Shown: positions 30,786 through 50,760 of the stretch, in pieces
Layout: each line of letters starts with the position of its first letter
How positions within the stretch are numbered: the stretch's first letter is position 1
Assembly (NCBI GenBank): GCA_949283375.1
Contig: CASDSM010000032.1
Coordinates: forward strand, 62,001 to 126,000
Reading direction: 5' to 3'
Source: an uncultured Eubacteriales bacterium
GTDB taxonomy: Bacteria > Bacillota > Clostridia > Oscillospirales > Oscillospiraceae
DNA: 64,000 nucleotides
Made by a program: the position numbers and the translations under genes
The notes under the pieces: generated by a model
What the model saw: only the letters and a program-made list of their open reading frames with translations
The model's database searches: none
What the model was told of the DNA's origin: nothing

Positions 30786-32414
<1,629 letters not shown>

Positions 32415-32451
32415 GGCCGGCAGCACACGGACAACGTGATCCATTGACCGC

Positions 32452-32486
32452 AAAAACCGCCAGGCTGCTATGCCTGGCGGTTTTTT
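32452..32486. terminator. Bidirectional terminator of groESL
   Basis: AAAAA-CCGCCAGGC (32452-32465) pairs with GCCTGGCGG-TTTTTT (32472-32486). It can end groESL from the left and the convergent unknown gene from the right. Confidence 0.9.
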
Positions 32487-32530
32487 GTCTCTTCACGGCC
32501 CTGCCGCGCGCTTCGCGCAGAAGGCGTCTC

Positions 32531-34324
32531 TCATGGCCGGCCGGCAGAGGCGCGGGTCTTCCTCGGTCTGACCAGGGAGGAGCAGACCTCGGCGTAGATG
32601 TCGGCAGGGTTTCCGGTGTCCTGGCTGGAGAGGACGATGGAGAGCATCATGCTCTGCTCGAGAATATGGGGCGGGTAGAAGCCGGACAGCCCTGCCCCGT
32701 CGAGTACCATCTGGGCGGCATCACAGTAGTCGGCCAGATTGTTATACAGGTCGCTCCGGGTCGCGATCGGGTGGACCAACCAGTAGAGGCTGAAGAGGAA
32801 CCAGAGCAGATAGAGCAGGTCCCCCTTCTCCACCTGGAGCGTGCCCAGAAGCAGCTCCTGGATCCGGTTGCGCATATGCCCCGGACCGCCTCCCACGGTC
32901 AGCCGGAGCTGGCCCTTCCGGTCAGTAGTGATGGTACGCCACGCCTTTGCCAGATCGGGCTCAAAGGTGAACTGCTCCTTGTTCTCCTTCATCAGCCGTC
33001 TGCTCAGCTCTCCGCACTTCTGCGCGGAGACGGCGCCGCCGTCAAACAGGGCGCGCTCCACCTCCGCCTCCCGTCCGGCGGAGCTGTGGCAGAGGCTGTC
33101 CAACTCATCGAGCAGGGCGCTGCCGCTCTCCGGCGCCGCCTCCTGCGCGATCAGCCGGTCCGCCCAGACCGCCAGCGCGCGGTAAACCCCCGTCGCGGTG
33201 CGGGAGGGGAGGTCCAGATAGGGAGCCTGACGCAGGAGCCAGTCCAGAAACCGCTCCTCCCGCTCCTCCGGCGTCTCCGACCATCGCTCCACCAGGAGGG
33301 GAAGAGAGGTCTGGACCGACTGCGTCCAGTCCAGTGTGCGCCCCTCTCCCTCCGCCTTGGCAATGCCCTGCGTCCGCTGGCGGTAGCACGCCTGCCAGCG
33401 GCACACCTCCCGCCAGCCCGCGCCGGTCAGAAAGCCGTATGCCTCGATCAGGTCGCGTGAGCTGTGATAGCGAAATCCGTCCTCGTGGTCAAAGACCCGC
33501 AGGAGAAACCAGCTCATCTCCTGGAGGGAAAAGGCGAGAAAATGCCCCAGCCGAAGGGCCTCCTCCCTGGTCAGCATCTGGCTGCAATCCCGCTCCGCCT
33601 GTCTTCTGGCCTGGCTGAGCGCCCTGCGGGTGGGCACACCGTCCATCCGGCTGGCATAGAACTCCCCCAGCCGGCCGGACGCGCGCATCGCGCGGCAGCA
33701 CAGCGCCATCACATCCGGCCAGTCCGCATCTGCCTGCCGGGAGGCGATGTCGAGCAGCACCTCCAGATAGCGCCCGTGCTCCTCCTCCAGGAGGCCACTC
33801 AGCCGGTCCGCCGCCGCCCGCGCGAGTGCGCGGATCTCCTCCACCCCCCGGTCCGTGCCGGTCATGGCATAGAGGCGCGGCTTGAACTCCCCTCCGTCCG
33901 GATTGATCTGCGGCCGAAAGGCGTCCTGCCGCTCATACACGCACAGCTCGTCAAGCAGGCCCGGCTCGCGCGCCGCCTCTCCTGCGGCGATCCGCTCGAG
34001 CAGCTCGAGCAGCTCCGTCCGCTCCCGGTAGCATCCCAGCGCCTCAAAGGTGTAGGACTGCTGCCCGCTCAGGCGGATGGTGAAGCCCGGCCTCTGCTCC
34101 GATTCGCTCGGGCTGCATCCGAAGGTGCGCGCGCAGAGGATCCGCATCAGGGCAAACCGGCTGGAGAGAGCGTACTGCGCGGCCAGACGGGTGAGCTTGC
34201 CGCGCCATATTTCGGCGGAGGTATTCTCCTGCGTATTTTCAATCTCCTCCCAGACGGCAAAGAGATCGGGATCGATCAGGTCAAAGCAGCGGGCATTGGC
34301 CGCAAGCGTATAGTTTTCATACAT
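32531..34324 (-). CDS. Uncharacterised 597-residue protein divergent from the kinase-TIR gene
   Basis: I do not recognise this family. It is mostly alpha-helical by appearance, rich in Leu, Arg and Glu, with no signal peptide. One very hydrophobic stretch near residues 505-522 (GDLLYLLWFLFSLYWLVHP) could be a membrane helix or a buried core. Cys are scattered, with no metal motif, and there is no Walker motif. It ends with a basic tail. GGAGGAAG precedes the ATG, and a good promoter lies upstream. It shares a 256-base divergent promoter region with the kinase-TIR-propeller gene, which suggests joint control or function; that is inference. Confidence 0.75.
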   Translation of the reverse strand: MYENYTLAANARCFDLIDPDLFAVWEEIENTQENTSAEIWRGKLTRLAAQYALSSRFALMRILCARTFGCSPSESEQRPGFTIRLSGQQSYTFEALGCYRERTELLELLERIAAGEAAREPGLLDELCVYERQDAFRPQINPDGGEFKPRLYAMTGTDRGVEEIRALARAAADRLSGLLEEEHGRYLEVLLDIASRQADADWPDVMALCCRAMRASGRLGEFYASRMDGVPTRRALSQARRQAERDCSQMLTREEALRLGHFLAFSLQEMSWFLLRVFDHEDGFRYHSSRDLIEAYGFLTGAGWREVCRWQACYRQRTQGIAKAEGEGRTLDWTQSVQTSLPLLVERWSETPEEREERFLDWLLRQAPYLDLPSRTATGVYRALAVWADRLIAQEAAPESGSALLDELDSLCHSSAGREAEVERALFDGGAVSAQKCGELSRRLMKENKEQFTFEPDLAKAWRTITTDRKGQLRLTVGGGPGHMRNRIQELLLGTLQVEKGDLLYLLWFLFSLYWLVHPIATRSDLYNNLADYCDAAQMVLDGAGLSGFYPPHILEQSMMLSIVLSSQDTGNPADIYAEVCSSLVRPRKTRASAGRP

Positions 34325-34379
34325 GGCGCTTCCTCCACCGGCAGATCGCAGCGCGCTGCATCCGCGTTTCTATGGGAAA

Positions 34380-34408
34380 ATTATACCGCCCGGCGCGTGG
34401 ATTGTAAA
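34380..34408 (-). promoter_or_regulatory. Promoter of the 597-residue protein gene
   Basis: On the minus strand TTTACA (34408-34403), a 17-base spacer, TATAAT (34385-34380): a near-consensus promoter about 55 bases before the ATG. The rest of 34325-34580 is AT-richer on the right, with a TATTAT/TTATAT region near 34532-34544 that may serve the kinase gene but lacks a clear -35. Confidence 0.7.
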
Positions 34409-34580
34409 TGAACCGCACCGTTTTTTTGCCTTCTCCTCCAGCAGAGGGCGTTTTTCATACGGGATGCGCCTTTTTCCGTCCCGATGCGCCGCTCCGGGCA
34501 TTTGGCACTGGATTTCATCCGCCGTCTTTGCTATTATTTTATATAGAAAGCAGGTTTTTCAGCGAATGGAGGGATGATCT

Positions 34581-37500
34581 GTGGTCAACAGGCGAGCTGC
34601 GCTTCTTCCCGGCACGCGGGTACAGCTGGAACACGGGAATCTGTACGAGATCACGGGCGAGCCCATCGGCAGCGGCGGCGGCAGCCTGATCTACCCCGCC
34701 CATCGTCTCCTGGAGCGGGGGGAGTCGCTTGTGCCGGACGGCATTGTCTATGCCCTGAAGGAGTGCTATCCCCTCTCCCAGACGCACGGCTTTGTCCGCA
34801 GCGAGACGGGGGAGATCGTCCCGGAGCGGCCGGAGGCGGAGGCGCTGGCCTATCTCAGCCGGGTCAGGGAGATGCAGCTCGCCGAGCAGAGGGTGACTCA
34901 GCAGATCTACCGGACCGGCTCGCGTCTGCTCCCCATCCGGGAGTCGGCGCATCGGGTGGCCCTCACCCCGCCGGGGGGCGGGACGGTATGGGTGGAGAAC
35001 ACCGTCACCGTCATGGAGTCTCTCTCCGCCAAGGGGCAGTCCCTCGAGTCCTGCCTGCGCCAGTGCCGGCGGATGACCACCGTGCAGACCTTCCACGTCA
35101 TCCGGCAGCTGCTCTTTGCCCTGCGGGAGGTCCATGAGGCGGGCTTTCTCCACCTCGATCTCCAGGGCAGAAATATCTTTCTGCGCGGCGACCTCTCCGA
35201 CGGGAGCGATATCATCACCATCATCGACTTCGGCTGCGCCCGCCCCCTGACAGACGGCAGGACGGAGCCCATCCGTGACCGGGTGATCTTCACCACTCAG
35301 GGCTTCTCCGCCCCGGAGATCCTGCGGAAAAATGACGGCGCGCTCCGGCTCGGGCCGGAGGCGGACCTCTATGCGGTAGGCTGCCTGATCCTCTATCTCC
35401 TCACCGGGAGCGTCTACAGCCCGGAGGAGCTGCAGAGCAACACCACCGGGCTGTATCTCACCCGCTTTAAGCTGCGGCGGATCGACTGCCCCCGGCATCT
35501 GATCCCCCGCCTCCAGGCCATCATCGCCCACGCGCTGAAAAACCGGCCGGAGGACCGTTACCACTCCGCCGGGGAGATGCTGGAGGACGTGAGCGACTTC
35601 TGCGCCGCCCTCCAGCCCTACCGGAGCGACCTGGCCGCGGTGGACTACGACGCCTTTCTCTGCTACCGCCATGGTCCGGTGGACAGCGCGGCGGCCCGCG
35701 CCCTGCAGCGCCATCTGGAGCACTTTCGGACCGCGCCCGGCTTTGCCGGGGCACGGCGTCCCTTCGACCGGGTCTTTCTGGACGAGGGGGAGCTGTCCAG
35801 CTGCGCCGATATGGGCGAGCAGATCCGCTCCGCCCTGAAAAATGCCGGCTGGCTGATCGTCATCTGCTCCCCGGAGACCCCGGGCTCTCCCTGGGTGCAG
35901 CGGGAGATCGAGACCTTTCTGGAATACCACGACCGCTCGCGCATCCTGGCCGTGCTCACCGGCGGAGAGCCGGAGGAGTCCTTTCCGCCCCAGCTCCGGG
36001 AGGGGGACGGGCATCAGGCGGTGCTGGCGGCGGACGCCCGCGGCAAGGACCTCCGCGCCGTGCTGAAAAAGCTCCGGCGGGACGCCCTTCTGCGCATCGC
36101 CGCCCCCATGCTGGGCGCCACCTATGACGCCCTGCGCCAGCGGCGGCAGATCTACCGCCTCCAGCGGGCGGCCGCGGCGGCCACCCTCTGCCTCGCCGCC
36201 GCCGTCGCCTTCTCCGTCTACGCCTTCCGCCGCGAGCAGACGATCGCCGCCCAGGCATCGCAGCTGCGGGAGCAGACGGAGCAGCTCGAGCAGGAGTATG
36301 AGAACGCCCTCCGGCAGGAGGAGATCATCTCCACCCAGGCGGCGGAACTGGAGGAGGAATACCGAAACACCCTTCTGGAGCAGTCCCGCTACCTGCTCAG
36401 CGACGCGCAGGACCGTCTGGCGGAAAACGATGTGCTGGGGGCGCTGGAGCGGCTGGTGGCCGCCCTCCCCTCGGAGGAGCAGGACCGGCCGGTGCTCCCG
36501 GAGGCGGTGTATGCCCTCACCAGGGCGCTGGGTGTGTATGAGCTGCCGGGCGACGCGGAGGACTCAATGACGCCGGCGGGCAGCTTTGAGCTGCCGGAGG
36601 GCACCCGCTCCGGGCTGCTGATCGATCCCACCGGGCAGTATCTCTTCACCTCCACACTTGACACGATCTATGTCTGGGATGCCGAAACCGGCGCGGTGCT
36701 GCGCACCCTCTCCGATGCCGGCCTGGGCGTCTTCTCCATCCAGCTGACCGGCGAGATGCTGATGACCACCGAGACCCATCTCATCGCCGACTGCTCCAAC
36801 AGCGTCGTCTGCTGGGACTATGTCACCGGAGAGGTGGTCTGGCAGACGGCGACGGAGGACTATATTCAGGCTGCCGCCCTGTCAGAGGACGAGTCCTCCG
36901 TCGTCCTGCTGGAGGACAGCTGTCTCCAGCGGCTCAGCACGCGGGACGGGGGTGTTCTGTGCAGCCTCCCGCTCGAAGAGGCGGACATGTCCGTCCCCCT
37001 CTCCGAGGGCACCTTCGCCTGCTCCGGAGACGGGAGCCGGGCCGCCTTTGCCAGCAAAAAGGACGCCGGAGAGGGCAGTCAGGTCACCGAGGTCTGGCTG
37101 GCAGACCTGCAGCGCGGGACCTGCCGGGCAGTCTCATCGCTGGATGACCGCTTTTATCTGGAGCGGCTGCAATTTGTGCAGGGCGATTTGGCCGCCGTCT
37201 GCTTCTCCTGGGGCGTCGGCTCCATCGAGGATGAATACACCATCTATACATCGCGGGAAAACCGCGTGACCCTCTATGACGGCTCCGCGGGGACGCTGCT
37301 CTGGACCTCCGCTTTTTCGTCAGTCAGCGCCGGAGACCTGCTGAGCGGCTATACCCTCCTCTCCGCTCTCCCCTATTCGGACGGGACGGGGACACGTCAG
37401 GCGCTCATCCTGTATCACACCAGCTCCATCTATGTGCTCGACCGGGAGAGCGGCGCGCTCCTGAAAAACTATGAGCTGGATGACCGCATCGTTGCGGTGC

Positions 37501-39065
37501 ACCCAAGCGAAAACGGATTTCGGGTGTTCACCCGGGACGGCTCCTCCTATCTGGCGGGCTTCTCCTGGGCCGGTACCCGGCACCACTACCGGACAGACTG
37601 CTTCACGGGTCCCATCACCGACGTCTGCTGGGACCCGGGACAGACCTTCTATTACACCATGCAGCGAGATACCCGGAGCTATTATCCCAGCCGCATCGTG
37701 AAGTATGAATATGAGGGCAGCCATTCGGCCTATGAGGCGCTGGACGCCGTGCCGGACAGCGGACAGACGGTCGCCGTCCGGGCGGGCAGCGAGCTGCGCA
37801 GCGGCCGCCCCCTGCTCACCCTGGGGGACTCCCTCTCCCTGTATGACCCGAACACCGGGACCCTCTCCAGCTTCCAGTTCCCCGAGGTGGAGGAGATCGT
37901 CACGATCCAGGACAGCGTCTTCACCGGGGACGGGCGGTATCTCGACTGCATCCTCCAGGGCCAGAGCGGCCTCTTCCTGCGGCGTCTGGAGCTGGCGGGC
38001 GAGACCTGGGAGGACCTGCCCCTTCCCACGCCGGGCGATCTGGCAGAGCAGGAGCGCTGGACGCTGGAGACGGCGGCCTTCTGGAAAAATGAGGTCCTCC
38101 TCCTGGGCAGGCTCGAGACTGAGCGCACCGTGGATATCCCGGAGACCGGCCAGCGCGGGACCTATGTCTCCAGCGCGGTGTATACCCTCCTCTCCTGGGA
38201 CCCGAACACCGGTCAGCTCAGTGAGATCGCCGTCTTCGATCCCGGCCAGAAGGAGGCGGAGTACAGCTATACCGATGACAGAGGCGCCTATCTCGGCTCC
38301 CTGACGCTCACCGCCCCTGCCGCCTCCTGGGTGGGCAGCTCGGGCTTTGACTGTCATCCCTCCTCCGGGACCGTCCGCTTCTGGCTGCGCGGCGCCGACG
38401 GCTATACCCTGGTCTCCGTGGACCTGGAGAGCGGCGCGGTCACGTCGGAGTCCTGCCGCGTGCAGCAGGACGGGGAGACGCTCCACTACTGGAAGAAAAT
38501 GACCATCAGCAGCACCGGGCAGTACACCGCCTGCATCGGCCGGTACAGCACCGGAGGGGAGAACTGGGCGGAGATCGACCTGTTCGATGCCGGAGGCCGC
38601 CTGCTCTATACGCTGGACTGCCCGGCTGAATACGGCAACTGCCTGCTCCTCTTCTCCCCGGACGACCGCCTGCTGATCGCCGGTGCGGGACGGGCCGCGC
38701 TGCTGTATGAGGCGGAGAGCGGCAGCCTGCTGGCCACGCTGGACCTCAGTGCCGAGGCCTCCTCCCTGCTCACCGACCTGGACGACGACACCTGCGCCGA
38801 CTGGCTGGACCCCTCCACCCTGCTGCTCACAGAGGGCGGGCAGGGGTACCTCCTCGACTTCTCCGGCGTGGAGCCGGGCATCACCGCCGTCATCGACCAG
38901 TGCCTCGGCTACGACCCGGAGGGGGACCGCTTCCTGGTCAGCCAGCTGGACTACTCCGGCAGCACTGCCGCGTATCAGTTCGGCGCCTTCCATCACTACA
39001 CGCTCCCGGAGCTGACGGCGCTGGGCCGGAGCAGGGCCGGCGCGGGCGAGGCCGGGCCGGACTGA
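34581..39065 (+). CDS. Ser/Thr kinase - TIR - transmembrane - beta-propeller fusion protein
   Basis: 1,494 residues from a GTG with GGAGGG 7 bases upstream. Domains: protein kinase (about 20-345: glycine loop IGSGGGS, Lys60 in YALKE, catalytic HLD with Asp193 and Asn198, IDFG at 215-218, APE at 244-246); TIR domain (about 352-500: [22 protein letters not shown], and SPWVQREIE with Glu442 at the position of the NAD-cleaving Glu); one membrane helix (530-549) after basic residues; coiled coil (about 550-605); then some 850 residues of beta-rich WD40/PQQ-like blades. The kinase loop has Gln195-Gly196 where Lys-Pro is usual. Kinase and TIR are probably cytoplasmic and the propeller outside. Stand-alone unit; function unknown, with immunity or signalling both possible. 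Confidence 0.88.
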
Positions 39066-39198: not shown

Positions 39199-40851
39199 AT
39201 GATCTATGCCGTTCTGTCCCTCTCCCCCATCCTGCTGGCGCTGGCCGCCATGGTCATCCGCCGCATCCAGCTCTCTGCCCCCAAGGCGCTGCTGCTCTCG
39301 CTGCTGCTGACCATCTTCCTGGCCGCCTTCGTCTGGCAGATGGAGCCTGCCGCCCTGGCCGCCTTCGGCGTACAGGGGGTGTGCAAGGCGCTGGAGGTCT
39401 TCTTTATCATCTTCGGCGCCATCCTCTTTCTCAACATGCTGCGCCGCACCGGGCATATGGAGGCCATTCAGCGCAGCTTCTCCCGCGTCAGCCCGGACCG
39501 GCGGGTGCAGGCGATTTTGATCGCCTGGCTCTTCGGCGCCTTCATCGAGGGGACGGCGGGCTACGGCACCCCGGCCGCTCTGGCCGCCCCGCTGCTGGTC
39601 GCCCTCGGCTTCCCGCCGGTAGCGGCGTGCATCGTCTGCCTGATCGCGAACTCCGCCCCTGTCCCCTTCGCCGCGGCGGGCGCGCCCATCACGGCGATGG
39701 CCTCCTCCATCGCCAGCGAGCTGACCGCGAACGCCGACTACGCCGCCCGGTACGGCCTCGGCTATGAGGACTTTCTTCAGGCGTGTACCGAGATGACCAC
39801 CCTCTTCCTCGGCGTGGGCGGCATCGCGGTGCCGCTGCTGCTCATCGGCGTCTTCCTTTTCCGCTATGGGGAGAAGGGGCGGCGCGGGCGCGACTTTGCG
39901 GAGATCATCCCCTTCGCCCTCTTCACCGGCCTGGCCTTCAGCGCGCCGTACTACCTCATCTCCCGCCTCTTCGGGCATGAGTTCCCCTCCATTATCGGCG
40001 CGGTGTTCGGGCTGGTGGTGTCGGTGGCCGCGGCCTCGCGTGGCTTCCTGGTGCCCAAGCACGTCTGGCGCTTTCCGAACGACCTGCCGCTGGAGGGCCG
40101 CGCCATCTTCAACGACAGCCACAAGGCGATGCCCGCCTGGCAGGGCTGGCTCCCCTACGGGTGCATCGGCCTCTTCCTGCTCATCAGCCGGGTGCCCGCC
40201 TTCGGGCTGCGCCCGCTGCTCCAGTCGTGCACGGTCGGCTGGGAGGGGCTGTTTGGCGTGGAGTCGTGTACCTATTCCTTCCAGCCGCTCTGGAACGCGG
40301 GCATCCTCCCCTTCGCCCTCTTTGCCGTCCTCGTCGGGCTGCTCAGCGGCGTGGGGGTGAAGGACGTGGGCCGGGTTTGCCTGGGGTCGTTCTTCCAGCT
40401 GCTCAAGGTGTTCTCCGCCCTCGTCTTCGGCGTGGCGATGGTGCAGATCATGATGAATTCCGGTGTGAACAACTCCGGGATGGACAGCATGCTGCTCGTC
40501 GCAGCCCAGGCGCTGGCCGACCTCACCGGCCCCGCCTTCCCCGTCATCTCCCCCTTCATTGGGGTGCTGGGGGCCTTCATCTCCGGCTCGTGCACCGTCT
40601 CGTGCGTGATGTTCACCTCCCTGCAGTTCCACACCGCCCTGCTGATCGGGATCGACCCGGTCTACACCTGCGCCCTCCAGACCGCGGGCGGGGCGATCGG
40701 CAATATGATCTGCATCAACAACGTCGTCTCCGTCTCCGCCACCACCGGCGCGAACGGACACGAGGGAGAGATCATCTCCACCAACCTCCTCCCGGTGGTG
40801 GTCTATGTGGCGCTGGTGCTGGCGGTCGCGTTTGCGGCAATGCTGGCCTGA
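39199..40851 (+). CDS. L-lactate permease (LctP family)
   Basis: 550 residues from ATG 39199 (GGAGG 10 bases upstream). About 12-14 membrane helices, with family segments [35 protein letters not shown] and the [26 protein letters not shown] end that is strongly conserved in LctP/GlcA. Imports lactate (or glycolate) with protons. It lies upstream of a butyryl-CoA:acetate-type CoA-transferase, in keeping with lactate use, but no lactate dehydrogenase is in the window. Confidence 0.92.
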
Positions 40852-40888
40852 GCCGACCGCCCTCTGACCGGAAAAGCAACCAACGCTG

Positions 40889-40925
40889 TGGACCGCAAGC
40901 TGTGCTCTTGCGGTCCATTTTTCTG
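40889..40925 (+). terminator. Terminator of the lactate permease gene
   Basis: Perfect 11-bp stem (40889-40899 and 40907-40917) followed by TTTTTCTG. Confidence 0.85.
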
Positions 40926-41007
40926 TCCCTCTGTCCTTCTCCCTTGCCCCGGGCGGCAAAATGCGGTATACTTTTTGCATCTGAACGATCCAAGGGAGGC
41001 GAACGCG

Positions 41008-41580
41008 GTGGGTCCGCTGCACAGGATACAATACAATTCCCCCGTCATTCTGACCTTTGCTCTGCTCTCGCTCGGGGCGCTCTTTCTCGGCATCTGGACC
41101 GGCGGGACGAGCACGGCGCTCTGCTTTTCCGTCTACCGCGCGCCGCTGACCGACCCGCTGACCTATCTGCGCTTCTTCACCCATGTGCTCGGGCACTCCA
41201 ATTACAGCCACTACATCGGCAATATGACCCTCCTGCTCGTGATCGGTCCACCGATGGAGGAGCGCTACGGCAGCGAGATGCTGCTCAAGATGATCGCCGC
41301 GACCGCCTTCCTCTCCGGGCTGGTGCAGTTTCTCTGCTTCCCCGGCGCTGCCCTGCTCGGGGCGAGCGGCGTGGTGTTCATGCTCATCGTCCTCTCCTCC
41401 CTCGCCGGGGCGGAGCAGGGGCGCATCCCACTCACGCTGATTCTGGTCTACGCGATCTATATCGGCGGAGAGATCGCCGACGGCCTCCTGCAGTCGGACA
41501 ATATCTCCCAGCTCACCCACATCATCGGCGGCACCTGCGGCGCGGTCTTCGGCATGGCCCTGCGCAGGAAAAGGCGCTGA
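41008..41580 (+). CDS. Rhomboid family intramembrane serine protease
   Basis: 190 residues from GTG 41008, with GGGAGG 8 bases upstream; the longer frame upstream would cover the terminator. Six membrane helices. Catalytic dyad Ser120 in LLGASGVVF (GxSG) and His171 in SQLTHIIGG, with the loop-1 segment HSNYSHYIGNM. It cleaves membrane proteins within the bilayer; substrates are unknown. Followed at 37 bases by the ArsC/Spx-like gene. Confidence 0.9.
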   Translation: MGPLHRIQYNSPVILTFALLSLGALFLGIWTGGTSTALCFSVYRAPLTDPLTYLRFFTHVLGHSNYSHYIGNMTLLLVIGPPMEERYGSEMLLKMIAATAFLSGLVQFLCFPGAALLGASGVVFMLIVLSSLAGAEQGRIPLTLILVYAIYIGGEIADGLLQSDNISQLTHIIGGTCGAVFGMALRRKRR

Positions 41581-41616
41581 GCGCAGTCCGCCCTCCCCAC
41601 GGAAAGGAGTCGTACC

Positions 41617-41970
41617 ATGCTGTTTCTCTGCTATCCCAAGTGCACCACCTGTCAGAAGGCCCGCCGCTGGCTGGACGGGCACGGCGCGGCCTATGAGCTG
41701 CGCGACATCAAGGAGGAAAACCCCTCTCTGGAGGAGCTGCGCGCCTGGCATGCGGCGAGCGGACTGCCGCTGCGCCGCTTCTTCAACACCAGCGGCCAGC
41801 AGTACCGCGCCCTCGGTCTGAAGGACCGTCTGGCCTCCATGACGGAGGAGGAGCAGCTCGCCCTGCTCGCCTCGGACGGGATGCTGGTCAAGCGCCCCAT
41901 CCTGGTGGACGGTGCGCGGGTGCTCGTCGGCTTCCGCGAGGCGGCGTGGGCGGAGGCGCTCGGGCTGTGA
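41617..41970 (+). CDS. ArsC/Spx family thioredoxin-fold protein
   Basis: 117 residues, full length for the ArsC/Spx/YffB family. N-terminal CYPKCTTCQKA with a CxxC pair, and the conserved RRFFNTSG and KRPILVDGARVLVGF segments. It could be an arsenate-reductase-like thiol protein or a Spx-type regulator; the KRP motif fits the reductase-like group. No arsenic genes are nearby. AAAGGAG precedes the ATG. Confidence 0.92.
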   Translation: MLFLCYPKCTTCQKARRWLDGHGAAYELRDIKEENPSLEELRAWHAASGLPLRRFFNTSGQQYRALGLKDRLASMTEEEQLALLASDGMLVKRPILVDGARVLVGFREAAWAEALGL

Positions 41971-43427
41971 GCGGCGGGAAGCGACGCCCCGCCTCCCCGC
42001 TGCGCCGCGCCCTGCGCATCGCCCGGCGCGCCCTGCTGGTCCTGCTCGTCTATCTGCTGCTCGGGGCGACCCTCCCCTTCGCCTGGAACCATCCGGAGGT
42101 GAGCGGGGACTACGCCGCCTGGGTGGCGGAGACGGATTTCTATGACAGCACCCCCGGACCGGAGCGGGTCGCCCTGATCGAGACGAATCAGGACGCCCTG
42201 GAAGCGCGCATCCGCCTCATCAGTCAGGCGGAGGAGCGGGTGATCCTCTCCACCTTCGACTTCCACAGCGACGAGAGCGGGCAGGATGTGCTCGCCCTGC
42301 TGCTGGACGCGGCGGAGCGCGGGGTACAGGTCCAGGTGCTCGCGGACGGGGCGACCAGCCTGCTGCGCATGACGGACAATCCCCTCTTCCAGGCCCTCGC
42401 CGCCCACCCGAACGCGGAGATCCGGCACTATAACCCGGTGAACCTCCTCGCCCCGTGGACGCTCAACGGGCGGCTGCACGACAAGTATGTGATCGTGGAC
42501 GAGACTGCCTATCTCCTCGGCGGGCGGAACACCTACGACTACTTCCTCGGCGACTACCCCACCCGACACCCCAGTCAGGACCTGGAGCTGCTGGTCTACA
42601 ATTCTGCCGGCGACGACACGCAGGGCAGCATGGCCGAGCTGCTGGACTACTTCGACGCGGTCTGGGAGGCCGAATGCTGCGTGACCTACTGCGACGACAC
42701 CGCCCTGCTCGAGCGCCCCGCTGTGCAGGAGGCCACAGCCCAGCTCGAGCGACGCTTTACCTGGCTCCAGACCGCCTATCCCGGCGCCTTTGAGACGGTA
42801 GACTACGCCGCCGTGACGGAGGAGGCGGGGGCGATCCACCTGCTGTCCAACCCCATCCACGTCAATGTGAAGGAGCCGCAGGTGCTCTACGCCCTCACCG
42901 AGCTGATGGCCGGGGCGGAGGAGTCCGTCACCCTGCACTCCCCCTACGCCGTGTGCGACCGGGCGATGTACGACGCCCTGGCTCGGGTGGCGGGCAGCGT
43001 CCCCGACTTCACCCTCCTGGTCAACGGGGTGGCCAACGGGGACAACCTGATGGCCTCCTCCGACTATCTGCGCAGCAAGGGGGATATCCTCGCCACCGGC
43101 GTCACCCTCTATGAGTACTCTGGCGAGGTGAGCGACCACGGCAAGAGCGTCACCATCGATGGCACGCTTGCCATCGTCGGCAGCTTCAACTGGGATATGC
43201 GCGCGGCCTACCTCGACACCGAGTTGATGCTGGTGGTGAGCAGCCCCGCACTCGCCGCCGCGCTGGACGGGTACACCGACGGCCTCCTCGCCGAGAGCTG
43301 CCTCTGTCTGGATGAGAGCGCCTATCTCGCCCCGGAGGGGCTGGAAATGCCGGAGATGTCCGGCGGGAAGGCCGCCGCCCTCTGGGTCCTGCGCTGGCTC
43401 ACCGTCCCCATCCGCTACCTGCTCTGA
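41967..43427 (+). CDS. Phospholipase D-like (cardiolipin synthase-type) protein
   Basis: 486 residues from GTG 41967, which overlaps the previous stop by 4 bases and has GGAGG 10 bases upstream. A basic start and one membrane helix (about 20-42) precede two PLD domains with HKD motifs: HDKYVIVD (about 171-178) followed by GGRN, and HGKSVTID followed by GSFNWD in the C-terminal half. Such proteins move phosphatidyl groups, as in cardiolipin synthase, or cleave phosphodiesters. The single membrane helix and length differ from classic Cls, so the exact reaction is open. Confidence 0.88.
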   Translation: MSGGKRRPASPLRRALRIARRALLVLLVYLLLGATLPFAWNHPEVSGDYAAWVAETDFYDSTPGPERVALIETNQDALEARIRLISQAEERVILSTFDFHSDESGQDVLALLLDAAERGVQVQVLADGATSLLRMTDNPLFQALAAHPNAEIRHYNPVNLLAPWTLNGRLHDKYVIVDETAYLLGGRNTYDYFLGDYPTRHPSQDLELLVYNSAGDDTQGSMAELLDYFDAVWEAECCVTYCDDTALLERPAVQEATAQLERRFTWLQTAYPGAFETVDYAAVTEEAGAIHLLSNPIHVNVKEPQVLYALTELMAGAEESVTLHSPYAVCDRAMYDALARVAGSVPDFTLLVNGVANGDNLMASSDYLRSKGDILATGVTLYEYSGEVSDHGKSVTIDGTLAIVGSFNWDMRAAYLDTELMLVVSSPALAAALDGYTDGLLAESCLCLDESAYLAPEGLEMPEMSGGKAAALWVLRWLTVPIRYLL

Positions 43428-43459: not shown

Positions 43460-43518
43460 AAAAAACGAACCAAAAGCGCATGCGCCTCAGACCGGCGCAG
43501 TGGAAGGAGTGTCCCGCC

Positions 43519-44871
43519 ATGACGCAGTATGCCGAAACCTACCGTCAGAAGCTGACCACCCCCGAGGAGGCCGTCAAGGTCGTCCAGTCCGGGGACTGGG
43601 TGGATTACAGCTTCACCTGCAACCACCCAGTCGCCCTCGACCGCGCCCTCGCCGCGCGCATGGAGGCGGAGCCTGAGCTGACCGACATCAACTTCCGCGG
43701 CGGCATCGCCCTCTGGCCCCCCGCCGTCACCCAGCTCCCGGACGCGGCGGGCCGCATCACCTGGAACTCCTGGCACGTCTCCGGCATTGAGCGCCGCCTC
43801 TTCCCGCAGGGCATCGGCTTCTATCACATCCTGCGCTACTCCGAGATGCCGCGCTATTACCGGGAGAACATCGGGCATGTGAATGTGGCCATGTTCCAGG
43901 TCGCGCCGATGGACGCCTTCGGCAACTTCAACTTCGGCCTCACCCCCTCTCACCTGCGCGCGATCTGCGATGTGGCGGACGTCATCATCGTCGAGGTCAA
44001 CCGCAATATGCCCTACGTCCACGGCGGGCATGACATGAGCGTCCATGTGGACGAGGTGAGCATGATTGTCGAGGCGGACAGCCCCATCGGCCAGCTCGCC
44101 GGGAGTGCTCCGAGCGAGGTGGACACCGCCGTGGCCAAGCTCATCCTCCCCGAGATCCCGAACGGCGCCTGCCTCCAGCTCGGCATCGGCGGGATGCCCA
44201 ACGCCGTCGGCGCGCTCATCGCCCAGTCCGACCTGAAGGACCTCGGCGTCCACTCTGAGATGTATGTCGATGCCTTTGTGGACATCGCGATGGCGGGCAA
44301 GATCACCGGCAAGTACAAGTCCCTCGACCACGGCCGTCAGGTCTTCACCTTCGCCGCCGGTACCCAGAAGCTGTATGACTACATGAACAACAACCCCGCC
44401 ATCATGGGCGCCCCGGTGGACTATGTCAACGACACCTCCGTCATCGCCCAGCTGGACAACTTCATCTCCATCAACAACACGGTGGAGGTGGACCTCTTCG
44501 GACAGGTCGCCTCGGAGAGCGCCGGCACCCGCCACATCAGCGGCGCAGGCGGACAGCTCGACTTCGTCCTCGGCGCGTACCGCTCCAAGGGCGGCAAGAG
44601 CTTTATCTGCTGCTCCTCCACCGTGAAGAACAAGAAGGCCGGCACGGTCAAGAGCCGCATCACTCCCACCCTGACCCCGGGCGGCATCGTCACCGCCACC
44701 CGCGCGAACATCCAGTATCTCGTCACCGAGTACGGCATGGTGAACCTCAAGGGCACCACCACCTGGCAGCGGGCGGAGGCCATCATCTCGGTCGCCCACC
44801 CCGACTTCCGTGACGAGCTGATCGCCGCGGCGGACCAGATGCACATCTGGAAGCGCTCGAACAAGCGTTAA
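43519..44871 (+). CDS. Butyryl-CoA:acetate CoA-transferase-like protein
   Basis: 450 residues from ATG 43519 (AAGGAG upstream). It belongs to the acetyl-CoA hydrolase/transferase family: [14 protein letters not shown], the segment [13 protein letters not shown] (probably holding the active-site Glu) and [16 protein letters not shown] are characteristic. Length and motifs fit the butyryl-CoA:acetate and 4-hydroxybutyrate CoA-transferase branch of butyrate producers. It would transfer CoA between butyryl-CoA and acetate as the last step of butyrate formation. Substrate is by family; 4-hydroxybutyrate or propionate remain possible. Single gene with a strong promoter and terminator, so probably highly expressed. 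Confidence 0.85.
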
Positions 44872-44925: not shown

Positions 44926-44981
44926 CTGTCAAAAAGGATTCGTGCCGTCCCGGATTTGTGCCCTCCCGGGGCGGACGCTTG

Positions 44982-47204
44982 TCACTTGGGCACCCTCTGG
45001 AGGGCGGCGTTGAGCTGGCGTACCGCCTCGGGGGGGATCGCCCCGGCGGCCTGCTTGAGGAGGCTCTCGAGGGACATCCCCGCCATCATCCGCTCCAGAT
45101 TCCTGTTGCCGCTGGCGGCCTGGGCCACATCGCCACGGCTGGCGCGGGCCTTGTCCATCATGGCCTTCACGATGGGGGCGGTGCCCGGATGGGCCATCAG
45201 GGCGCCCAGGGTGTCCCGGATGGAGAAGCAGTCCGGCCGGAAGTCCTCCCGGTCAAACCAGTTGACCACCTCTCCCTGCTGGGCCAGGCGGTAGGCGGGG
45301 TCGGGCTGCGCTGCCCGGCGCACCGTGATGGTGTCCGTGCAGTCCCCCGCCCGGGCGGTGACGGTGTGCTCCCCGGTCAGCGGGACGCGGAAGGTGAACA
45401 CCCGCTCCCCCCGCAGGGTCCCGACCGGCACGCCGTCCACCGTAAGGCTGACCTCGGCGCAGTTGGAGTAGACCTTGATCTCGGTGACCTCCTCCGCCCG
45501 GTTGACGTACCGCCGCCCGCAGAGGTGGACGAAGGGCTCTGTCCGGTTCCAGGCGGCCTTGTAGAGGTAGAAGGCATCCTTCTTCACCTGACGGTCCATG
45601 GTGACCAGGCCCTTCTGGTTCACCCCGTGCTTGCCCCCCTCGTCCCGGCCGTCGGCGGCGAAGTCGAAGAGGTTCCAGACGTGGGTGGCCCAGAGCCAGG
45701 GGCGGCGGTCAATGAGACGGAGGATGTGCTCGTGATAGAGGCACTGGTAGCCCTCGGTGTAGTCCCCCCGCTCCGGGTGGGACGACTGGAGGGCGGGGTT
45801 GGCGTCCGCCCCGTACTCGGAAAAGCCCATCACCCGCCGGGGGAAGCGCTCGTGATAGGCGTCAAAGAAACGGTCATTCTCCTCCAGCTCCCCCAGATAC
45901 CAGCCGAAATAGAGGTTGTAGCTGCCGATGTCGGCGATCTGGATGAGGGGGCTGTCCGTCTCGAGCATAAAGACGTGGGCCATTGTGGTGGGCCGGGTGG
46001 GGTCCAGCCTGTGGCAGAGGTCGTTGAGGAGGCGGTGGTTCTCCATCAGGTCCCCGGTGGCCGTGCCGCTGGCGGTGATCTCGTTGGAGAGGCCCCAGCA
46101 GACGATGGAGGGGTGGTTATAGTTCTGCACCACCAGCTCGGTCATCTGGTCCAGAGTGTTCTGCCGCCCTGCGGGCATGTGCTGGGTGATATAGGGGATC
46201 TCCGCCCAGACGATGAGACCCTGCTCATCGCAGAGGTCGTAGTAGGCCTGTGCGTGCTGGTAGTGGGCGAGTCGGACGGTGTTCGCCCCGATCTCCCGAA
46301 TGATGGCCATGTCCTCCCGGTGATGGTCCAGGGTGAGGGCATTCCCCACTCCCGCCCGGTCCTGATGGCGGGAGACGCCGCGCAGGGGATAGGGCCGCCC
46401 GTTGAGGAAGAAGCCCTCCTGCGCGTCAAACCGAATCGTCCGGCAGCCGAAGCGGGCGGAGATCTGGTCGGTCTCCTCCCCGCCGGAGAGCAGGGCGGCA
46501 GTCACGGTGTAGAGATAAGGGTCCTCCACCCCGTCCCAGAGGTGGACGTCCTCGAGGGAGAAGACCGCCTCCGCCCGGCCCGCGGCGTCCGGGGCGGTGA
46601 AGATGGCGCCGTGGACACCCTCGAGCTCCAGGCGCACCAGCCCCTCCCCCACCTGCCAGGTCTCCACCTTTACCCGGGCGGTGCGCCTCTCCAGATCCAC
46701 CTCCGGGGTCATCCGGAGGCCGGGGCCGCCGTGATGGCCGAGCTCAAAGTGGACCGCCGGGACGATGATGAGGTTCACCCCCCGGTAGAGGCCGCCGTAG
46801 AAGGTGAAGTCCGCCTTCTGGGGGTAGACGCGGTCGTTTTCTCCGTTGTCCACCGCCACGCAGAGGAGGTTGTCCTCCGCCAGCGCGTCGGTGATGTCCA
46901 CCCGGAAGGTGGAGTAACCCCCCTCGTGGCGGGCCAGCGTCTGCCCGTTCAGGGTGACAGTGGCGGTCATCGCCGCCCCCGGGAACTCCAGCCAGGCCCG
47001 CTCCCCCGCCGCCAGCGCGGGCCGGGAGAAGGCCCTAACGTACATGGCGGTCCCCCGCCAGTAGTCGTTGCCCCCGTCCTGGCCGTCCACGGCATTCCAG
47101 GTGTGGGGCAGGGTCACCTGCACCCAGTCCTCCGGCAGGGTGGCGGGAATCTGGGCGGTCTTGGCAAAGCGCCAGCCGCCGTTCCACTCGGTCACAGTTC
47201 TCAT
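44982..47204 (-). CDS. GH2 family beta-glycosidase (beta-galactosidase/beta-glucuronidase type)
   Basis: 740 residues. Sugar-binding sandwich (about 1-165), Ig-like domain (about 165-260), TIM barrel (about 260-560) with acid/base Glu375 in GLSNEITASG and nucleophile Glu463 in GFSEYGADA, then a beta domain and a helical tail (about 640-740). GH2 covers beta-galactosidase, beta-glucuronidase and beta-mannosidase; I cannot choose. No signal peptide, so it works in the cytoplasm. The ATG overlaps the GH3 stop by 4 bases and its GGAGG lies in the GH3 end, so they are coupled. Last gene of the glycan locus. Confidence 0.92.
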   Translation of the reverse strand: MRTVTEWNGGWRFAKTAQIPATLPEDWVQVTLPHTWNAVDGQDGGNDYWRGTAMYVRAFSRPALAAGERAWLEFPGAAMTATVTLNGQTLARHEGGYSTFRVDITDALAEDNLLCVAVDNGENDRVYPQKADFTFYGGLYRGVNLIIVPAVHFELGHHGGPGLRMTPEVDLERRTARVKVETWQVGEGLVRLELEGVHGAIFTAPDAAGRAEAVFSLEDVHLWDGVEDPYLYTVTAALLSGGEETDQISARFGCRTIRFDAQEGFFLNGRPYPLRGVSRHQDRAGVGNALTLDHHREDMAIIREIGANTVRLAHYQHAQAYYDLCDEQGLIVWAEIPYITQHMPAGRQNTLDQMTELVVQNYNHPSIVCWGLSNEITASGTATGDLMENHRLLNDLCHRLDPTRPTTMAHVFMLETDSPLIQIADIGSYNLYFGWYLGELEENDRFFDAYHERFPRRVMGFSEYGADANPALQSSHPERGDYTEGYQCLYHEHILRLIDRRPWLWATHVWNLFDFAADGRDEGGKHGVNQKGLVTMDRQVKKDAFYLYKAAWNRTEPFVHLCGRRYVNRAEEVTEIKVYSNCAEVSLTVDGVPVGTLRGERVFTFRVPLTGEHTVTARAGDCTDTITVRRAAQPDPAYRLAQQGEVVNWFDREDFRPDCFSIRDTLGALMAHPGTAPIVKAMMDKARASRGDVAQAASGNRNLERMMAGMSLESLLKQAAGAIPPEAVRQLNAALQRVPK

Positions 47205-49693
47205 GATAGTTCCTCCCTCTCCATCCAGACCGGGGTCACGCCATTGGTGATCAGCCGCAGCACCCGGCCGGCACAGCGGCGCAGGCCGGCATAGTCCAGC
47301 CGCCCGTCCGCCACGGCGGCCCGGAGGGCCTGATGGTCATAGTCGTTGCCCGGCATGATGAGGTCGTTCCCCGCCCAGGCGCAGCGGACGGGGTCCCCGG
47401 CGCGGGCGTTGGTGCTCCCCCAGTCGGTCATCACAATGCCGTCAAAGCCCCACTCGCAGCGGAGGATATCGGTGAGCAGGTCGCGGCGGTTGGCGGTGTA
47501 GACATGGTTGAGCTGGTTGTAGCTGCTCATCACAGTACGCGGGCCAGCCTTACGGACGGCGATCTCAAAGCCCTTCAGGTAAATTTCCCGCAGGGCCCGC
47601 TCGCTGATGTTGGCGGAGAGGCCGTTGCGGTTGTCCTCCGAGTTGTTGCAGCAGAAGTGTTTTACGCTCACCGCCGTCCCCGGACGGCTCTGGACCCCCC
47701 GGGTCAGAGCGGCGGCCAGCTCACCGGTGAGGACGGGGTCCTCGGAGTAGTACTCAAAGGCCCGGCCCCCCAGGGGATTGCGGTGGATATTCATCGCCGG
47801 GGCGAGCCAGACGGTGACGCCGAAGGCCTCCATCTCCCGCCCTGCGGCCCGGCCCACCGCCTCGAGCAGTGGGGCGTCCCAGGTCTGGGCGAGGAGCATC
47901 TCCACCGGCCAGGCGGTGGCATAGCGGTAGATCACCGTCCCCTGCGGCATGGCGGCAAGCTGCCTGCGGATCACCGCGGAGAGCATCCCCCAGTCATACC
48001 GCTCCGGGATGTCGGCGGCCACGGAGCGCCCGTCCGGCAGCAGCTTGAGCTTTTTGCAGAGGTTGATCCCCGCCGGGCCGTCGGCAAAGATCAGGTTGCG
48101 CAGCCCCTTGTCCAGCAGGGAGGTGGCGGTCTTGCCCCCCGCCCCGGGGATGTCCAGCGCCCCCCTGGGCACCTGCTGCAGCGCCCCGCCGCAGAGAAGC
48201 TCGGTCATCTCCTCCGCCGTCAGGCGGTCCAGAAAGGCCCGCTCCTCCTCCGTTTCGGTGAAGGCGGGCGGGGTGTAGTTGGTGACCCGGGCGGGGACCG
48301 ACCGGGGATCGGCGGTCAGGCGGAAGGCGTGGGCGGGGATCTCCTCCTCCGGGCGGTCCGTCTCCGGGAGAAATGCGCCCAGCTCGTCGGTGGGGGCGCA
48401 GCAGGTGCGGCACTGACGGGTCACCACCCGCTCGGGCAGGGTGACCACGGCGGCGATTTCGGTGTCCCGGCTGGAGCTTCCCAGCCTGAAGATATAGTCT
48501 CCCGCCTCCAGCACCCAGGCGGCGCGGCCCTCGTCATAGCTGGCACAGTCGGAGAGAGGGACGATGAGGGTCAACTGCTCCTCCCCGCCGGGGGCCAGCT
48601 CCCCCGTCTTGGCGAAGGCGGCCAGCCGCTGATACTCCTTCACCAGCCCGCCGCGCGGGGCGCTGGCGTAGAGCTGGACCACCTCCCGGCCGGGGACGGC
48701 ACCGGTGTTTGCCACCGCCGCCGTCAGGCGGAGAGTCTCCCCCTCCATCTCTGCCGACACGGCGCGGAGAGAGAAGCTGGTATAGGACAGGCCGAAGCCG
48801 AAGGGATAGCGCACCGCCTGATGGAAGGAGTCAAAATAGCGGTAGCCGACGTAGATCCCCTCCCGGTAGTTCTCGTTCTCCACATCTCCGTCCAGATAGC
48901 TGAATTCATCGCCGAAGGGGATGTCCTCATAGCGCAGGGGGATGGTGTCCGAGAGCTTGCCGGAGAAGTTCACCTTGCCGGAGAGGACGTCCGCCAGGGC
49001 GTTGCCCCCCTCCTCGCCACCCTGGACAAAGAGGACCACGGCGTCGATTCCGCCGATCTCGTCCAGAAAGCCGAGGTCGATGTGCCCGCCCACATTGATG
49101 ATGAGGATGGTATGGGCATACCCGGCAGCCACGGTGCGCAGGTTCTCCCGCTCGATGTCGGTGAGGTAGTAGTCCCCCGCCTCCAGGCGGCGGTCGTTGC
49201 ACTCCCCCGCCTGACGGGTGAGGACATAGAGGGCGGTGTCGGTGTCGCTCTCGCGGATGTCCTCCCCGGTGATGCGCCGCCCGCTGGGATAGCGGTAGAC
49301 AAAGCTGTGCGCCAGAGGGATGATCTCCATCGGGTTGGTGAGGCCGGCCACCTGCTCCTCCACCATGTCATGCCAGACCCGGTACGTCTCGGCGTGCTCC
49401 CGGTCATAGTCGTCCAGCCAGCGGGCGGTGGTGATGGTATAGCCGGCGTTTTTCAGACCGTCCTCGATGTTGACGCTGCAGCGCTCCTCCACGCTGCCGC
49501 TGCCCAGACCGCCCTTGACGGTCTCCCGGGCGCCCATGCCGTAGAGGGCCAGTCTGTTCCCCCGCAGGGGCAGGGCGTTCCCCTCATTTTTCAGCAGGAC
49601 AAAGCCTCCGGCGGCGGCCCGGCGGGCCAGCGCCCGGTTCTCCAGCTCCAGCGGGGTGGGGTCTGGGCTGGTGGTTCCGTAGAGATGATGCAT
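47201..49693 (-). CDS. GH3 beta-glucosidase with reversed domain order
   Basis: 830 residues from ATG 49693 (AAGGAGG upstream). The usual C-terminal GH3 domain comes first (GGFVLLKNEGNALPL near residue 30, then a beta-sandwich and fibronectin-III-like part), and the catalytic barrel follows: NIHRNPLGGRAFEYYSEDP, VSVKHFCCNNSEDNR, and the nucleophile Asp at about 757 in IVMTDWGS. This reversed order is known from some Ruminococcus-type beta-glucosidases. No signal peptide. Overlaps GH2 by 4 bases and lies 12 bases after the GH43-like gene. Acts on beta-linked glucose or xylose ends. Confidence 0.92.
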   Translation of the reverse strand: MHHLYGTTSPDPTPLELENRALARRAAAGGFVLLKNEGNALPLRGNRLALYGMGARETVKGGLGSGSVEERCSVNIEDGLKNAGYTITTARWLDDYDREHAETYRVWHDMVEEQVAGLTNPMEIIPLAHSFVYRYPSGRRITGEDIRESDTDTALYVLTRQAGECNDRRLEAGDYYLTDIERENLRTVAAGYAHTILIINVGGHIDLGFLDEIGGIDAVVLFVQGGEEGGNALADVLSGKVNFSGKLSDTIPLRYEDIPFGDEFSYLDGDVENENYREGIYVGYRYFDSFHQAVRYPFGFGLSYTSFSLRAVSAEMEGETLRLTAAVANTGAVPGREVVQLYASAPRGGLVKEYQRLAAFAKTGELAPGGEEQLTLIVPLSDCASYDEGRAAWVLEAGDYIFRLGSSSRDTEIAAVVTLPERVVTRQCRTCCAPTDELGAFLPETDRPEEEIPAHAFRLTADPRSVPARVTNYTPPAFTETEEERAFLDRLTAEEMTELLCGGALQQVPRGALDIPGAGGKTATSLLDKGLRNLIFADGPAGINLCKKLKLLPDGRSVAADIPERYDWGMLSAVIRRQLAAMPQGTVIYRYATAWPVEMLLAQTWDAPLLEAVGRAAGREMEAFGVTVWLAPAMNIHRNPLGGRAFEYYSEDPVLTGELAAALTRGVQSRPGTAVSVKHFCCNNSEDNRNGLSANISERALREIYLKGFEIAVRKAGPRTVMSSYNQLNHVYTANRRDLLTDILRCEWGFDGIVMTDWGSTNARAGDPVRCAWAGNDLIMPGNDYDHQALRAAVADGRLDYAGLRRCAGRVLRLITNGVTPVWMEREELS

Positions 49694-49704
49694 GATGGGC
49701 CTCC

Positions 49705-50760
49705 TTATAATTCCTCCGGCGTCCATTCCTCCCGCCAGCGGATGCAGGGCATTCCGTCCTCCACCGTGAGGGGGAGCCAGACGTAATTGGCGATGGAGGT
49801 ATTGGCCGTGGCCAGCATGGGGCTGCTGCGCAGCTCCATCACCTCATGGGGCTCCACCCGGTAGCGGTCCGGGGCGAAGTGGGCGGCGATGGCCCGGGTG
49901 AAGAGGTCCGCCCGGTGGGCGTCCACCGGGTAATCCGGCACCCAGCGGTCGGCGAGGGTGAGGAACACCCCGGGCCTCCCCGGCAGGGGGAAGGCCTGGC
50001 TGATCTGGCTGTTGAAGCTGGCCCGGCTCTCGTCCGCCACATGGGGGTCCCCGATCGGGCGGAAGGGGCCGAGGGGCGCGTCGGACACGGCAGCGTCGCT
50101 CTGGTTGGGGATGTAGCCGGTCATTCCGCTGGTGAGCATATAGTGCCGGCCCTCGTGGGCGAACACCGTGACCCCCTCCCGGGTGAAGGGGGCGTGGAGG
50201 CCCTCATACTGGACGGTGACCGGGCCGGTGAGGTCCAGATAGTCCTCCGTCAGCTCGGAGCAGAACACCCCGGCGTGGTCGCCGTCAAAGTAGAGGTAGG
50301 CCCGCCCCTCCTCCTGGAAGAGGTCGAAGTCCCCCACCTTTTTGCCGAGGGGACGGTAGTTGTCCTTTACAATGGTATACGGCCCCAGCAGGCGGTCCGC
50401 CGTGAGCACCACAAAGCAGGCCTCCCGCCCGGAGAGCTTGAGCCAGCAGACATATTTCCCGGTGCGGGGATTTTTCAGGATATGGGGGCGGTCCACCCGC
50501 TTCTGTGGGGCCAGATTGGAGCCGGGGTCGTCCAGCACCGGCGGGATGATGAGGCCGCGGTCGGTCCAGTTGCAGAGGTCCTCACTCTGATAGGCCCGGA
50601 TGCCCCAGGTCCAGATGCCGTTTTTGCCGTCCGTATGTTCCTTGTTCTCCCCGTACCAGGTGTAGACGCCGTCTTCAAAAAACAGGGCGCCGGCGTGGGC
50701 CTGGATGCGCTTGCCGTCGGTGTCCAGCCAGGGGCGGCCGGGATAGATCGCGTTTTGCAT
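49705..50760 (-). CDS. GH43-like five-bladed beta-propeller glycosidase
   Basis: 351 residues. The opening WLDTDGKRIQAHAGALFF, then YTWYGENKE, matches the GH43 group that includes exo-beta-1,3-galactanases, and later blades have RPHILKNPRTGKYVCWLK and VGDFDLFQEEGRAYLYF. The propeller is complete, without a carbohydrate-binding module or signal peptide. Catalytic residues cannot be assigned surely; galactanase-type members use unusual ones. A beta-galactosidase, arabinosidase or xylosidase role is possible. Lies 18 bases after the GH78 gene in the same operon. Confidence 0.75.
   Translation of the reverse strand: MQNAIYPGRPWLDTDGKRIQAHAGALFFEDGVYTWYGENKEHTDGKNGIWTWGIRAYQSEDLCNWTDRGLIIPPVLDDPGSNLAPQKRVDRPHILKNPRTGKYVCWLKLSGREACFVVLTADRLLGPYTIVKDNYRPLGKKVGDFDLFQEEGRAYLYFDGDHAGVFCSELTEDYLDLTGPVTVQYEGLHAPFTREGVTVFAHEGRHYMLTSGMTGYIPNQSDAAVSDAPLGPFRPIGDPHVADESRASFNSQISQAFPLPGRPGVFLTLADRWVPDYPVDAHRADLFTRAIAAHFAPDRYRVEPHEVMELRSSPMLATANTSIANYVWLPLTVEDGMPCIRWREEWTPEEL

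Follow-up and report, generated by a model that had tools for sequence, protein, structure and literature searches.

What might a protein kinase and a TIR domain do in one bacterial chain? The question is raised by a gene in a 64,000-nucleotide stretch of DNA from an uncultured Oscillospiraceae bacterium (assembly GCA_949283375.1, contig CASDSM010000032.1, positions 62,001 to 126,000; hereafter the window), whose product joins the two and has, between signal and output, a membrane helix and propellers. We put at about 40% the probability that this product acts, in an accessory stress or defence module, as a TIR effector anchored in the membrane and controlled by its kinase. Its open reading frame (ORF) runs uninterrupted from a GTG at 34581, with GGAGGG 7 nt upstream, to a stop at 39065 and encodes 1,494 residues (Table 1); the source genome has one copy, which is also its only TIR_2 match. 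A first-pass annotation, made from the letters alone, had proposed this architecture: its domain identities, its TIR glutamate and the genuineness of the single gene have stood, while its remark on altered kinase activity has not.

Domains of the fused protein

A survey of genomes yielded five further proteins with kinase, TIR domain and membrane helix in the same order (loci L064, L065, L206, L207 and L208). One of them, L065, comes from the named strain Blautia luti MSK.16.34, whose record is not marked as a metagenome-assembled genome (MAG), and another, L064, from a Lachnospiraceae MAG. Recurrence of the order in five other genomes, a named strain included, rules out an assembly or frameshift fusion and removes the initial concern that the gene might be an assembly product peculiar to one strain.

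Both enzyme domains are identified by Pfam matches above cut-off. Pkinase (PF00069) covers residues 144-328 with 73.1 bits (cut-off 31.7), and the Lys, HxD, DFG and Asn positions of the protein kinase superfamily are present as well. In the alignment of the six fusions, from which their glycine loop and their TIR Trp-Glu motif were also read, the kinase motifs ALKEC or AVKEC, HLD(L/I)Q--N, DFG and (A/S)PEI occur in every member. The loop of the window's protein reads HLDLQGRN and keeps Asp193 and Asn198. It has Gln-Gly in place of Lys-Pro, a change that according to the first-pass annotation may alter activity; the Gln is common to all six fusions and the catalytic Asp and Asn are intact, so that neither an altered activity nor a loss of it is supported here. 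The Gln-Gly loop is, judging from the alignment, a trait of the clade and not a defect. The catalytic positions of both predicted enzymes are kept in all six proteins.

TIR_2 (PF13676) matches residues 397-480 with 32.9 bits (cut-off 28) and ThsB_TIR residues 409-459 with 30.3 bits (cut-off 21.2). An AlphaFold2 model of residues 346-1494, built on 44 alignment rows, has in this region the alternating strands and helices of a TIR-like fold, most 10-residue blocks having a predicted local distance difference test score (pLDDT) above 84 and a few 61-73; the domain has both a TIR profile match and a TIR-like fold, and the span first given for it, 352-500, was about right. The Trp and Glu of W-x-x-x-E are found in all six fusions and in 17/17 and 44/44 rows of two wider TIR alignments. 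TIR domains of this kind cut NAD+ in other proteins. There are 23 PDB matches, plant and bacterial TIR chains among them, and in the four plant chains listed this Glu falls on that of the WCLME motif, the catalytic Glu of plant TIRs. The sequence feature of an NADase-type TIR is therefore present where it had been proposed, with Glu442 as a candidate catalytic residue. The fusions also share a signature, DEGE(L/F)(S/A)SC (6/6), where stand-alone relatives mostly have RDxEELP (consensus of 44 rows). A Foldseek search with the model of residues 346-1494 returned no TIR chain among the 50 matches listed, all of which were dominated by propellers.

That the C-terminal part, of roughly the length first estimated (~850 residues), consists of propeller-like blades is supported as far as the fold class of some 800 residues in the model goes. 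PQQ_2 matches with 48.7 bits (cut-off 27.6; best stretch, residues 695-795), and in the model the TIR-like domain is followed by a long helix, where a coiled coil had been predicted, and then by 64 strands. Mean pLDDT is 73.5 and the predicted template modelling score 0.59, with 175 residues below 50; the propeller parts of low confidence are model residues ~701-733 and ~806-917. The best Foldseek matches in the PDB are propeller proteins, including Apaf-1 and the Utp21 tandem WD domain (best E 1.1e-19). Because the query TM-scores are low (0.14-0.24), we claim the fold class only, and not the number or packing of blades. We are less sure of propellers in the other five fusions: among the three scanned, the Pfam match is above cut-off in L206 and below it in L064 and L065, and BLAST with the window's propeller region finds L064, L206, L207 and L208, and not L065.

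Exactly one hydrophobic segment is present in each of the six fusions, as had been stated for the window's protein. Its N-terminal flank is more positive than its C-terminal flank in five, with a tie in L065, which favours an orientation with the N-terminus inside and the C-terminus outside. Both observations speak for the view taken at first pass, that of a cell-surface receptor whose outer propellers bind a ligand and switch on the kinase and the TIR domain inside. Against this view, the propeller region resembles soluble more than exported proteins in its cysteine content, the median being 1.76% (44 rows), compared with 1.61% in soluble ORFs (n = 398, P = 0.75) and 1.23% in lipobox-type exported ORFs (n = 27, P = 0.0097), with single fusions between 1.15 and 2.29%. 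A crude rule defined the comparison sets, and the rows, being related, are not independent. Given such sets and rows, we assign the propellers to neither side of the membrane, and the surface receptor appears to us rather unlikely.

Table 1. Features of the fused gene and its upstream flank (window coordinates), and kinases with other modules (coordinates of their own loci)
Feature	Position	Strand	Basis or remark
Fused gene: kinase, TIR, membrane helix, coiled coil, propeller region	34581..39065	+	ORF, Pfam, AlphaFold2 model, hydropathy
Kinase domain, residues 1-345 (Lys60, loop 191-198, DFG 216-218, APE 244-246)	34581..35615	+	Pfam, motifs, six-fusion alignment
TIR domain, ~residues 352-505 (Trp438, candidate catalytic Glu442)	35634..36095	+	Pfam, alignments, model, PDB matches
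Single predicted membrane helix, residues 531-549	36171..36227	+	Hydropathy; one such segment in 6/6 fusions
Coiled-coil-like helix, ~residues 560-614	36258..36422	+	AlphaFold2 model helix 215-269
Propeller region, ~residues 663-1471, perhaps two propellers	36567..38993	+	PQQ_2, 64 model strands, Foldseek
P0005, 597 residues, divergent neighbour without Pfam or PADLOC match	32531..34324	-	ORF scan; homologue adjoins fusion in L064
Divergent intergenic region, 256 bp	34325..34580	.	Promoter-like TTTACA-17-TATAAT for P0005, 34408 to 34380, minus strand; consensus match only
Kinase with TPR, L048	4715-9761
Kinase, L060	5793-9860
Kinase, L235	4233-8564
Kinase, L059	4015-9926

Distribution and origin of the fusion

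The fusion is rare and patchy; owing to overlap between the genome samples and to the fragmented state of many genomes, all counts of fusions are lower bounds. Within the window's genus the fused gene occurs in 1 of 32 genomes, the other 31 matching over kinase stretches only. In its family, 374 of 400 genomes match somewhere, and most of the matches listed cover the kinase only. Of 20 family loci inspected by BLAST of their ORFs, 15 have a TIR ORF without a kinase match, three (L048, L059 and L060) a kinase ORF without a TIR match, and two (L043 and L047) no match at the ORF level although tblastn finds the TIR region; in none are kinase and TIR in one ORF. A contig scan with one TIR pattern gave at least 573 relatives, and among the best 80, which were kept, a kinase lies in the same ORF in two (L064 and L065) and not in 78, at least 8 of these 78 loci being truncated at their 3′ side where the contig stops. 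A profile of the fused-form TIR, searched against 397 genomes of B. luti's family, produced five matches above 250 bits, all of them fusions (G811 with L065, G810 with L064, G994 with L206, G978 with L207, G947 with L208), the next match standing at 198.6 bits; in samples of 391 genomes from the class and 398 from the phylum, no genome but the window's own reached this score. In B. luti's genus the count is 1 of 64.

All five further fusions belong to B. luti's family (f31, an assignment inferred from identical contig places: G622 = G833, G507 = G991, G447 = G1017), and this differs from the window's family (f1) within one class; hence the fusion clade crosses families. In a tree of 113 TIR rows (114 matches, two short ones dropped and the window added; several long branches flagged), a branch with support 98/85, present in 99% of 200 bootstrap trees, separates the six fusions from the other rows, and the window groups with L064 (100/84). 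The kinase tree, made by a quick method from 33 rows (7 of 39 matching ORFs, including L040 and L041, were omitted as short) and rooted at the midpoint, likewise groups the six (Shimodaira–Hasegawa-like approximate likelihood ratio test, 97) and places the window with L064 (84). As far as such trees go, a single fusion event followed by inheritance and transfer would explain these groupings best. The sporadic spread suggests a transferable alarm or self-defence switch. Phage or plasmid cargo was considered and rejected: none of the 79 plasmid and 12 phage records with a match covers 80% of the query, and a low-sensitivity search of viral contigs by short exact patterns gave no relative.

Candidate partner genes

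A candidate partner gene is present at all six fusion loci, of one or the other of two families. P0005, the divergent neighbour in the window, has no Pfam or PADLOC match and occurs in the genus in 1 of 32 genomes; a homologue (41% over 425 residues) is likewise divergent, 190 bp from the fusion, in L064, and B. luti's genome has none. The neighbours in L206, L207 and L208 form another divergent family (383-402 residues, at 110, 1,818 and 179 bp from the fusion, respectively), and in L065 a 548-residue gene on the same strand overlaps the fusion by 50 bp. With a 115-residue slice of this last protein as seed, a profile iterated over 3,525 ORFs delimited a partner-domain family that occurs in four of the six loci (L065, L206, L207 and L208), the P0005 family accounting for the other two (window and L064); by these tests the two families are unrelated, a pairwise hhalign comparison of P0005 with the partner-domain family giving E 0.024 at 251-309 with a probability of 2%, a position that is only suggestive. 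The profile also matches genes beside the kinase-TPR gene of L048 and the kinase-NACHT-like gene of L060, genes near the kinases of L040 and L041, and three of 12 further kinase loci (L232, L233 and L235); no stand-alone TIR locus was matched below E 0.01 among these 3,525 ORFs. The partner genes scanned have no Pfam match, and the domain may resemble a helix-turn-helix. PP2C phosphatase genes occur at two of the six loci, beside the B. luti gene and near the L206 gene.

Such partners would also suit a kinase scaffold, in which the TIR domain serves only to assemble the chains and the protein acts by phosphorylating the partner, for instance so as to change how a stress operon is transcribed. 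That some TIR domains work as scaffolds is known and gives this alternative a precedent. It sits poorly, however, with the invariance of the candidate catalytic Glu in all 44 rows, and we regard it as unlikely.

A different reading of the surroundings would make the fused gene a housekeeping regulator of envelope or growth, and not a conflict gene. Those neighbours in the window that have a match are genes of metabolism, chaperones and lipids; ARAGORN predicts no tRNA gene across the window, and the ORFs scanned gave no mobile-element match. A housekeeping gene would, on the other hand, hardly be expected in just 1 of 32 genomes of a genus, or at a place where DNA similarity to congeners stops, at or just after groEL (window 32415 onward), in all eight relatives fetched (L218-L225) of 31. 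This reading seems quite improbable.

Kinase relatives and stand-alone TIR relatives

The nearest kinase outside the fusion clade is the kinase-TPR protein of L048 (support 99, quick kinase tree), and those of L235, L060 and L059 lie on the same side of the tree as the fusions (support 95; long branches flagged); the PknB-like ORFs of the window's genus lie on the opposite side. All four resemble the fusion in having the kinase at or near the N-terminus and differ from it in carrying other modules behind the kinase, with no Pfam match to TIR or propeller. These modules are NACHT in L235 (31.9 bits, cut-off 26.7), a NACHT-like region in L060 (NACHT 24.9, just below the cut-off of 26.7; AAA_22 28.9, above 27) and a Card1-like endonuclease domain in L059 (25.9, just below 26.4). 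The kinases of L048, L060 and L235 adjoin a gene of the partner family, and the neighbour of L059 has no match to it. A defence role for the fusion is suggested by its patchy spread and by kinase relatives with NACHT, NACHT-like and Card1-like domains, of which two of the three stand just below cut-off. Two other kinases of the window's genus, L232 5998-9342 and L233 2578-6183, match the adhesive-like domain Pectate_lyase_5.

On the TIR side, the relatives are stand-alone Clostridia proteins of ~1,000 residues that have a membrane helix and, in those with a match, propeller repeats. They have TIR domain, helix and a long C-terminal part in the same order as the fusion and share 29-50% identity with it over most of the TIR domain. 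A hydrophobic segment follows the TIR domain in 40 of 44 rows, and the Pfam propeller match is above cut-off in L044 and below it in L050. One of these proteins, on a Butyrivibrio fibrisolvens plasmid, is annotated as toll/interleukin-1 receptor domain-containing protein. They differ from the fusion in lacking a kinase match (78/80 loci) and in the frequent presence of an adjacent gene for a DHH/DHHA1 phosphoesterase (~504 residues), encoded within the flank at 40 of the best 80 loci. In 36 of the 80 the DHH gene is on the same strand at less than 200 bp, 26 times before and 10 times after the TIR gene, some pairs overlapping by 4 bp; many of these loci are related Lachnospiraceae MAGs, so the 36 pairs are not independent. 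The DHH proteins are 45-67% identical to the seed (its own locus aside), which itself has the Pfam match. Because two gene orders occur, a functional link between DHH and TIR can be argued, and the pairs point to a possible phosphodiesterase controlling a TIR-made signal. At the six fusion loci, the DHH query matched nothing. Adjacent genes with TIR matches, ~280 and then ~690 residues long, were seen in L061 (5284-8189) and L062 (6867-9766).

One may speculate further that the TIR-membrane-propeller proteins are a widespread class of membrane TIR signalling or suicide proteins of Clostridia. In the common form the DHH protein would degrade the nucleotide product of the TIR domain; in the fusion clade a covalently attached kinase, with a partner protein and PP2C as switch, would have taken over this control, and the outcome would be a receptor of one chain whose single sensor governs both phosphorylation and NAD+ chemistry. 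We hold this wider scheme to be rather doubtful.

A possible mechanism

For the kinase-controlled effector proposed at the outset, the following sequence of events can be imagined. In the resting state, the chain would be kept inactive by its propellers and perhaps also by the partner protein encoded next to it. Chains would be brought together by a signal that the propellers bind or the partner relays, whereupon the kinase would phosphorylate itself, the linker or the partner; the clustered TIR domains might then consume NAD+ or make a nucleotide signal, and this output would cause dormancy or death of the cell. Resetting the switch could fall to the PP2C phosphatases whose genes lie beside the B. 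luti fusion and near that of L206. The most economical model is a TIR switch tethered to the membrane and gated by the kinase, although its gate, ligand and output are what we infer, as are ligand gating, NAD+ cleavage and phage defence in general. If the kinase does gate the TIR domain, the protein would offer a compact and testable system for the control of an NAD+-consuming enzyme by phosphorylation.

Several results weigh against the effector and its module. The PADLOC matches of the fusions are those of a kinase region to kinase models and no sign of a defence system, and viral contigs, searched with short exact patterns of low sensitivity, gave no relative. The matched neighbours in the window, as said, serve metabolism, protein folding or lipids. 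As to the partner, the candidate in L207 is separated from the fusion by two ORFs, the L206-L208 family joined the profile only at round 2 (E 0.002-0.004), P0005 failed the profile test for membership (3.8 bits, rank 23 of 1,748 listed), and the structure model of P0005 is unusable (pLDDT 35.7). Finally, with the PP2C proteins of L065 and L206 as queries, no match was found at the other four fusion loci.

Comparison with known systems

The order kinase, TIR, membrane helix, propeller was not found in the portions available of the open-licence literature (PMC7159879, PMC8195603, PMC10907252, PMC9153377, PMC13174449). Partial resemblances are several. ThsB of Thoeris shares the ThsB_TIR match above cut-off, and the fusion adds to it a kinase, a membrane helix and propellers. 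Thoeris, which consists of a ThsB TIR protein encoded beside ThsA (SIR2 or macro), was rejected as an assignment, since neither SIR2 nor macro is matched by the neighbouring ORFs scanned. One study (PMC9153377) describes protein-kinase-like integrated domains as widespread in TIR-NLRs. Such plant proteins, like the fusion, have kinase and TIR in one chain, but there the kinase is an added bait, whereas here it is the N-terminal part of a bacterial membrane protein, and the fusion has no NB-ARC or LRR match. Foldseek likens its C-terminal part to the propellers of Apaf-1 and other NTPase-WD40 proteins, the first of which is autoinhibited by two WD40 propellers according to the portion seen of PMC13174449; unlike these, the fusion has no NTPase match, and kinase and TIR domain take that place.

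Kinases with a C-terminal sensor region are another parallel: PknB-type PASTA kinases, actinobacterial kinases fused to propellers (mentioned in an excerpt of PMC7159879) and mycobacterial PknD. In the fusion, unlike in these, the TIR domain sits between kinase and membrane. The Stk1/PknB PASTA kinase model (NF033483) was rejected at 66 bits against a cut-off of 450, with no PASTA match in Pfam, as was the MADS kinase MAD6 (NF047741) at 57.4 against 460. With PD-T4-6 of PADLOC, a library without cut-off, only the kinase region aligns (E 2.1e-27). Mokosh, a helicase-kinase plus a PLD protein, was rejected too: MkoA aligns over the kinase only (50.1 bits) and the fusion has no helicase match; an ORF at 41946-43427, 3 kb downstream, matches MkoB with 31.6 bits but also cardiolipin synthase, and this PLD region is also present in G001, which lacks the fusion and whose groEL is the most similar among the relatives.

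Surroundings of the loci

An insertion between groEL and the lactate permease could not be made out, since no empty site is demonstrable, the flanks lying in G001 on different contigs (C18 and C35). Of ten ORFs in one Pfam scan of the window, five had no match (32444-33460, 33464-34411, 40161-41696, 44958-47294 and 47333-49786), two of them being antisense to P0005 and another two to glycosidase matches. Upstream of the fusion in L206 (1-3906) lie a kinase fragment at the contig edge and vWA, PP2C and Sel1-repeat genes, a set that resembles TerY-type phosphorylation triads. A GroEL gene is near the fusion both in the window (30792-32414) and in L208 (14484-16106). Further downstream in the window, at 43480-44871, a butyrate-forming butyryl-CoA:acetate CoA-transferase is encoded (TIGR03948, 733 bits).

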